Source: Desulfuromusa kysingii
Lineage (GTDB): Bacteria; Desulfobacterota; Desulfuromonadia; Desulfuromonadales; Geopsychrobacteraceae
Direction: 5' to 3'
NCBI RefSeq assembly: GCF_900107645.1
Contig: NZ_FNQN01000005.1
Location: 174,193-238,192, forward strand
DNA: 64,000 nucleotides
The translations under genes and the position numbers were made by a program. The notes below the pieces were generated by a model. It made no database searches and had not been told where the DNA came from. It saw only the letters and a list, made by a program, of their open reading frames with translations. Of this stretch, positions 46,775 through 47,309 are shown piece by piece (the stretch's first letter is position 1; each line of letters starts with the position of its first letter).

Positions 46775-46938
46775 TGGCGGAGAGGGAGGGATTCACCCAT
46801 TACGTCACCAGCATCCTGCTGGTTCCTGCGTCGGCTCCCCTGCTTTCGCTGACGTGGACATCCTGTCCACTTTTCTGACATTAAGTCAGCGCTCATTCCG
46901 CTTCGAATCCCAAAAGGATCCTGTCGTACATATTTATC
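46775..46938 (-). repeat. tRNA 3'-end-duplicating element, copy A
   Basis: A 164-bp unit directly after tRNA-Ser(GCT). Its far end repeats 20 bases of that tRNA's 3' end, including CCA (46775-46794 equals 46939-46958), and the similarity extends 7 bases further with one mismatch. The body is about 80% similar to copy B and carries hairpins CCAGCA-TCC-TGCTGG, GTGGACA-TCC-TGTCCAC and CTGAC-N5-GTCAG (plus strand). It contains no credible gene. Confidence 0.85.
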
Positions 46939-47027
46939 TGGCGGAGAGGGAGGGATTCGAACCCTCGGTAGCGTTACACTACACTCGCTTAGCAGGCGAG
47001 CACCATCGGCCTCTCGGTCACCTCTCC
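46939..47027 (-). tRNA. tRNA-Ser(GCT)
   Basis: 89 nt with encoded CCA and discriminator G. The acceptor is GGAGAGG/CCTCTCC, the anticodon loop CTGCTAA, and the long variable arm is typical of serine tRNAs. It lies downstream of serS and tRNA-Ser(TGA). Its last 20 bases are duplicated at the end of element A. Confidence 0.97.
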
Positions 47028-47061
47028 GCAATAAACAGCTTACGATGTTAAATTTTTTAAA

Positions 47062-47221
47062 TGGCGGATGGCCAGGGATTCGTCCACTTTGTCACCAGCA
47101 TCCTGCTGGCTCCTGCGTTGACTCCCCTGCGCTCACTGACGCAGACATCCTGTCTGCTGTTCTGACATTTAGTCAGCGTTCGCTCCGCTTCAAATCCCAT
47201 GAGGGATTGGTTTCAATTAAA
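47062..47221 (-). repeat. tRNA 3'-end-duplicating element, copy B
   Basis: A 160-bp unit directly after tRNA-Ser(TGA). A perfect 26-bp direct repeat (47057-47082 and 47217-47242) copies that tRNA's own 3' end, including CCA and five flanking bases. The body matches copy A, with the same hairpins. In the second hairpin two pairs differ from A but stay complementary (GCAGACA-TCC-TGTCTGC). It lies between the two serine tRNA genes. Confidence 0.85.
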
Positions 47222-47309
47222 TGGCGGATGGCCAGGGATTCGAACCCCGGGTGAGTTTCCCCACAATAGTTTTCAAGACTACCGCCTTAAGCCGCTCGGC
47301 CAGCCATCC
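47222..47309 (-). tRNA. tRNA-Ser(TGA)
   Basis: 88 nt with encoded CCA and discriminator G. The acceptor is GGATGGC/GCCATCC, the anticodon loop CTTGAAA, and a long variable arm is present. It is the first tRNA after serS, with its own promoter candidate just upstream. Confidence 0.96.

Follow-up and report, generated by a model that had tools for sequence, protein, structure and literature searches.

Two related noncoding units behind serine tRNA genes of Desulfuromusa kysingii belong to what is apparently a large, undescribed family of structured elements present in at least three bacterial phyla. One end of each unit repeats the 3′ end of the tRNA gene that precedes it, and at the opposite end the T-arm of the tRNA recurs in inverted orientation (GGGATTCGAA / TTCGAATCCC), a feature absent from an earlier, sequence-only reading of the same DNA. 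We think it fairly probable that the units are short, nonautonomous, structured mobile repeats that target tRNA genes at their 3′ part and duplicate the targeted sequence, the copy then being kept identical to its host.

The units lie in a 64,000-nucleotide stretch of the D. kysingii genome, here called the window, on the minus strand of which the order is serS, tRNA-Ser(TGA), a 160-bp unit, tRNA-Ser(GCT), a 164-bp unit, and tRNA-Arg (Table 1). In tRNA orientation, each unit consists of a trailer of 23 to 27 nt, a core of about 117 nt and a copy of the tRNA 3′ end of 20 to 21 nt. The sequence-only reading had described both units as noncoding, about 80% similar in their bodies and too small (160 to 164 bp) for an integrase gene, and had seen no copy after tRNA-Arg. 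All of these points hold: the two units are 79 to 82% identical, and tRNA-Arg(ACG) is followed by a plain terminator and no element. That reading was also correct that each unit ends in a perfect copy of its own host tRNA end, CCA included; the copies are exact over 20 and 21 nt, however, and do not reach the claimed length of up to 26. An exact match of 20 nt at the end of a unit is not due to chance, and the pattern recurs across the family. Adjoining the tRNA cluster on the plus strand (44774-46474) is a gene for a 566-aa protein with a voltage-gated potassium channel-like part and TrkA-like domains, to which no NCBIfam model matched at its cut-off.

Table 1. Features of the serine tRNA locus (window coordinates).
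Feature	Position	Strand	Identified by
Host tRNA-Ser(GCT)	46939-47027	minus	ARAGORN and Rfam tRNA
Unit A, whole, 164 bp, directly 3′ of tRNA-Ser(GCT)	46775-46938	minus	
Unit A, 27-nt trailer (flank X), from tRNA CCA to core	46912-46938	minus	
Unit A, structured core, starting with inverted T-arm GGGATTCGAAGC (46905-46911 = GGGATTC)	46795-46911	minus	
Unit A, exact 20-nt copy of tRNA-Ser(GCT) 3′ end, with CCA	46775-46794	minus	
Host tRNA-Ser(TGA)	47222-47309	minus	ARAGORN and Rfam tRNA
Unit B, whole, 160 bp, directly 3′ of tRNA-Ser(TGA)	47062-47221	minus	
Unit B, 23-nt trailer (flank X), from tRNA CCA to core	47199-47221	minus	
Unit B, structured core, starting with inverted T-arm GGGATTTGAAGC	47083-47198	minus	
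Unit B, exact 21-nt copy of tRNA-Ser(TGA) 3′ end, with CCA	47062-47082	minus	
tRNA-Arg(ACG), same cluster, ordinary terminator, without element	46624-46700	minus	ARAGORN
serS, serine--tRNA ligase, upstream of tRNA cluster, context only	47411-48682	minus	TIGR00414, 563.9 bits

The body is not confined to the window, the case in which the sequence-only reading would have given way to a simple local duplication. The same core lies behind many tRNAs in many genomes, beginning with four further loci of the source genome: tRNA-Ser(GGA), two tRNA-Glu(TTC) and tRNA-Pro(TGG), the last with a shortened core. BLAST found the body in 54 of 98 related genomes, and a covariance model (R1) found the core, of about 115 nt, in 72 of 136 Desulfuromonadales genomes, with up to 14 copies per genome. 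Pelovirga terrestris, a cultivable host, has at least eight. A pattern scan of about 85,000 genomes returned 57 stretches, nearly all from Desulfuromonadales, plus one from Treponema and one from an Elusimicrobiota metagenome-assembled genome (MAG). Other classes of Desulfobacterota contributed 11 more genomes with units (from a sample of 395); there the hosts are tRNAs for Lys, Arg, Asn, Tyr, Pro, Ser, Glu and Ala, and the copies are mostly 18 to 22 nt long. For wider searches of phyla we used a broader covariance model, R2, which matches unit A at 46788-46913 and unit B at 47075-47200, each with 130 bits and E 6e-28, unit A having itself been used to build the model. R2 matched in 78 of 393 genomes of Spirochaetota, the phylum of the Treponema MAG, where a tRNA whose end is repeated was present at 16 of the 19 loci examined, although in a few of these the repeat is simply a neighboring tRNA. 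It also matched in 16 of 248 Elusimicrobiota genomes, some of the matches being weak, and all five loci examined there stand behind a tRNA with a matching end. Since the matches are spread over samples of whole phyla, mis-binning of single MAGs is no explanation. An Rfam scan of the window reported no family besides tRNA, the sub-threshold matches to a plastid model overlapping the tRNA itself, and the window core had no match among plasmids and phages. Geobacter and Pelobacter genome papers describe multicopy intergenic sequences, and some copies may already be among these.

The ends of these elements follow the local tRNA. Among 169 nonredundant full-length copies, 159 lie less than 900 bp behind a tRNA on the same strand, the hosts being tRNAs of 18 isoacceptors; the other 10 are near contig ends or, mostly, have a tRNA-like 3′ end with no tRNA called nearby. 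In 119 of the 159 elements, the copy agrees with the last 21 nt of the local tRNA at 20 or more positions, while tRNAs of other specificity give a mode of 13/21. Copies thus sit behind other tRNAs with matching 3′ ends, as the sequence-only reading had suggested looking for, and each bears a matching host end rather than an unchanging flank unrelated to the adjacent gene. The opposite end tracks the host as well: the 5′ end of the core is the reverse complement of the T-arm, extending 5.9 nt beyond the invariant TTCGA against 2.8 in controls, and reads CCAGGATTCGAA behind tRNA-Gln, GAGACTCGAA behind tRNA-Leu and CAGGTTTTGAA behind tRNA-Asn in Treponema. In Treponema, the tRNA genes lack an encoded CCA, and the copies also lack it and continue into a duplicated terminator; here, therefore, the copying is from DNA and not from processed tRNA. 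Four units with tRNA-like 3′ ends, L228 (G020:C300), L193, L218 and L234, have no tRNA called in the stretch examined; the tRNA may have been missed, be of another kind such as tmRNA, or have been lost. At L270 (genome G829), a run of N about one unit long separates tRNA-Ser(CGA) from a repeat of its 3′ end and is probably an assembly gap at an element array.

Comparative analysis indicates that the core folds as a covarying RNA. When 31 pairs were tested on 33 sequences, 98.4% of cells were paired and two-sided changes occurred in 18 of the 31 pairs, a level reached by none of 500 shuffles; slid structures dropped to 27 to 51%. Among the pairs, G-U outnumbers A-C by 25 to 5, which places the structural constraint on the tRNA-sense strand. 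Single-sequence folds of the window units are only modestly stable (z of −3.06 for unit B and −1.86 for unit A), so the comparative evidence carries the claim of RNA structure. Two further helices were rejected. A hairpin (P0) in which the last part of the trailer would pair with the inverted arm is striking by eye but gives 3.16 nt against 3.02 in shuffles, and a long alternative helix, CGCUGAC/GUCAGCG, finds no support, since hairpin 1 and the second GTCAG vary without regard to each other (alignment A1). The apical loops of hairpin 2, those of both window units included, are mostly ANGGA, the type of loop bound by CsrA, and a CsrA match was present in 14 of 16 genomes tested; one Elusimicrobiota MAG had neither a CsrA match nor GGA loops. 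Despite these suggestive loops, a role as a CsrA sponge does not seem to be general, since hairpin 3 in Desulfuromonadales is mostly UGA.

The distribution of cores within genomes bears on how they arrived. In genome G027, the cores behind tRNA-Ser(TGA), tRNA-Ser(GCT) and tRNA-Ser(GGA) differ at only 1 to 2 of 110 positions, and the trailers and copied ends of the TGA and GCT loci differ as their tRNAs do. At the level of sequence, such near-identical cores at three serine tRNAs of one genome show recent spread. The GGA trailer resembles the GCT trailer, and the last 21 nt of these two tRNAs are identical, a pattern that suggests block transfer through identical ends. Over the whole set, 33 cores are closest to one at a different tRNA of their own genome, against 1.8 expected when genome labels were shuffled, and 63 to one at the same tRNA of another genome, against 12 expected when host labels were shuffled; both spread and inheritance therefore occur.

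The sequence following the tRNA is often duplicated along with its end. The flanks after tRNA and after copy agree at nine or more of their first 10 nt in 43 of 127 elements, where 0.5 would be expected, while in about half of the copies no flank duplication is visible. The trailer is short in 79 of 126 cases and long in 47, and the long trailers examined carry a terminator between tRNA and core. In these terminator-bearing trailers, the flanks agree to about nt 46, roughly where the T-run ends in the loci L053, L057 and L207, and agreement then falls to about 0.28. In unit A, the two flanks are identical at only 7 of 20 positions, so its flank has decayed or was never duplicated. In 46 elements the two flanks are no more alike than background, yet 32 of these still have a copy that agrees with the tRNA at 20 or more of 21 positions. 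A simple relic of insertion would be expected to decay along with its flank; gene conversion with the tRNA, or selection, would account for the exact copies. Alternatively, the flanks of these 46 elements were never duplicated. No pair of occupied and empty sites within one Desulfuromonadales species was seen. The sequence-only idea of insertion at a tRNA 3′ end, with restoration or duplication of that end, has good support from the host-matched copies behind many tRNAs, the near-identical cores and the duplicated flanks, and its interpretation as a whole is partly supported.

Tandem arrays and trailing truncated units also occur, the truncated start of another unit being present in the following sequence in 26 of 127 cases. 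These trailing units are cut short at their 3′ side, a feature left unexplained by simple target duplication; they recall the non-integer repeat number reported for E. coli tyrT. Solo stubs without a copied end, in which a tRNA and its trailer are followed by just the beginning of a core, were found at L022 and L036 (behind tRNA-Ser) and at L010 of the source genome (behind tRNA-Gln(TTG)); they are probably relics of lost arrays.

Neither resident enzyme tested, RVT_1 or Y1_Tnp, accounts for insertion. Reverse transcriptase was rejected as a required partner, RVT_1 matches being present in only 60 of 136 genomes and absent from the element-rich genomes G011 (14 copies, 100% complete) and G003 (9 copies). 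The Y1 transposase does not appear to be required either: it is nearly ubiquitous (116 of 136 genomes), yet has no match in G061, G014 and G054, which carry 1 to 7 copies. At L209 (G091:C1:3454400-3456700), a unit that lacks its tRNA comes after sequence resembling a group II intron 3′ end; a reverse transcriptase lies about 0.5 kb upstream, and the genome has a dozen identical reverse transcriptase genes. The intron may have inserted into the trailer.

The sequence-only reading knew of no named family that fits, and here it was mistaken: the rtT repeats of E. coli tyrT (Rfam RtT, RF00391; gene rttR) have the same architecture, though no Rfam match. In strain K-12, three 178-bp units each end in the 19-nt tRNA-Tyr end, and each core starts with GGGGAAGGAT, the inverse of ATCCTTCCCC, followed by GAGAAGC. 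As in the present family, the units stand directly behind the tRNA, with an exact copy of its end and an inverted T-arm/acceptor start. The rtT units are tandem and variable in number, and array-free sites exist. The rtT core occurs in 4,708 of 5,426 E. coli genomes at 1 to 10 places each (loci L156 and L272) and, in the Klebsiella and Salmonella records examined, also at tyrT; in E. coli strains such as M10, the tRNA is joined directly to the post-array sequence, giving an exact array-free site. There are differences as well. The only rtT host in the enterobacterial loci examined is tRNA-Tyr, against 18 isoacceptors here, and rtT carries a small open reading frame, tpr. At its gathering score, RF00391 had no match in the window or in the related loci L024, L059 and L237, nor in the source genome (E≤1), while the E. 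coli positive control scored 134 to 138 bits. Conversely, the three best R2 matches in the 1.5-kb tyrT locus are the three rtT units, in register, at weak scores of 14 to 16 bits (E 0.001 to 0.003). The present family can therefore be said to work like rtT, and it may share a common origin with it.

Other known systems share single traits with the family. Integrative elements that target tRNA genes (tyrosine-integrase islands, prophages and tycheposons) also exploit the tRNA 3′ end, of which they leave a direct repeat. They are kilobases long, carry an integrase and supply the tRNA end themselves, whereas the present core is about 115 nt and noncoding, and the copied end belongs to the host gene; the units measure only 160 to 164 bp, and near-identical cores carry different, host-specific ends. 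REP/BIME sequences (RAYT, Y1 transposase) are likewise short, palindromic, nonautonomous intergenic repeats. We know of no target duplication or tRNA end copy in REPs; the present family, in contrast, duplicates flank and tRNA end, and some carriers have no Y1_Tnp match. Group IIC introns insert next to terminators and have RNA structure. However, they are much longer, contain catalytic domains and are not known to copy a tRNA end, and several element-rich genomes have no reverse transcriptase match.

If the units are mobile repeats, insertion would place the core downstream of a tRNA gene and duplicate a target that starts at the T-loop, takes in CCA and extends into the trailer or to the end of the tRNA terminator. 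The tRNA gene before the core would thereby stay whole, and its 3′ end would be repeated behind the core. The direct copy would follow if a staggered break were made, with one cut at the T-loop and the other where the trailer or terminator ends, and the core were joined into it; template switching at shared T-loop sequence would be equivalent. Because the first 7 to 13 nt of the core are complementary to the copied T-arm, the element would close on itself through a helix of tRNA sequence. The host-matched inverted arm may arise from copying of the T-arm during insertion or from later selection for pairing, and cases that pair through G-U only suggest that selection plays some part. The machinery would presumably be trans-acting or housekeeping. 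Copies would be gained and lost by recombination between the direct repeats, and in old insertions the flank would decay while the copy stays identical through gene conversion, which we infer to be at work, or through selection on the helix.

The strong RNA-type structure could instead reflect a cellular RNA function. As small RNA genes of the RtT type, which we judge an unlikely explanation though far from a negligible one, the units would be co-transcribed with the tRNA, freed at its processing and regulatory; their spread would be ordinary duplication, and the tRNA-like 3′ end, needed for processing or folding, would be kept by selection or gene conversion. Such a role fits the sense-strand structure with its G-U bias, the exactness of copies despite decayed flanks and the short trailers in 79 of 126 cases. 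It also fits the description of rtT RNA as freed from the tyrT transcript, and a report from Actinobacillus of RtT-family RNAs near tRNA genes for Asn and Lys (PMC4986893). It does not readily fit the 47 long trailers with, where examined, a terminator between tRNA and core, the patchy presence (72 of 136 genomes) at different tRNAs, the clustering of cores within genomes, or the truncated solo stubs. Target-primed reverse transcription, in which the T-arm is nicked, the element RNA anneals via CGAAUCC and a long duplication results from top-strand cleavage beyond the trailer or terminator, would account for host-exact copies, for a duplication ending near the transcript end and for RNA-like structure. 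We hold it to be improbable, given the genomes with 14 and 9 copies and no RVT_1 match, and truncations that lie at the wrong end for this mechanism.

Two explanations that make the units by-products of other events fare worse. Remnant attL/attR sites of integrase-bearing islands or prophages targeting the T-loop would explain why the copied block has the size of the classical integrase target, which runs from the T-loop to the 3′ end. With an integrase crossover, however, the tRNA would receive its 3′ end from the element, whereas each copy here fits its host; moreover, the core varies little in length or structure from phylum to phylum, and no integrase-sized gene fits between tRNA and copy. 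This very improbable explanation is already contradicted. Local tandem duplication of tRNA-flanking segments, unrelated at each locus, is suggested by arrays and flank duplications that resemble tandem repeats; it is refuted by the same core at dozens of unrelated tRNA loci in several phyla, and we give it almost no credence.

More tentatively, and with a little less than even confidence, we suggest that mobile repeats of this kind form an unrecognized minimal class of mobile element in several phyla, both ends of which are built from the local tRNA as direct and inverted, mutually pairing copies, needing no transposase or reverse transcriptase of the types tested, and of which the E. coli tyrT repeats are one outlying case. 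Those 178-bp repeats have been known for decades as a one-locus curiosity; our results suggest that they exemplify a widespread kind of element governed by a strict rule: its ends are built from the sequence of whichever tRNA gene precedes it. With 1 to 10 places per genome and array-free strains such as M10, E. coli tyrT is a ready system for the study of gain and loss. Should the RNA reading be true, an unannotated tRNA-linked RNA family is present in many bacteria. Should mobility be the true reading, a gene-less sequence of about 115 nt moves precisely among essential genes and leaves them unbroken, and many natural insertion sites are on hand for working out its mechanism.
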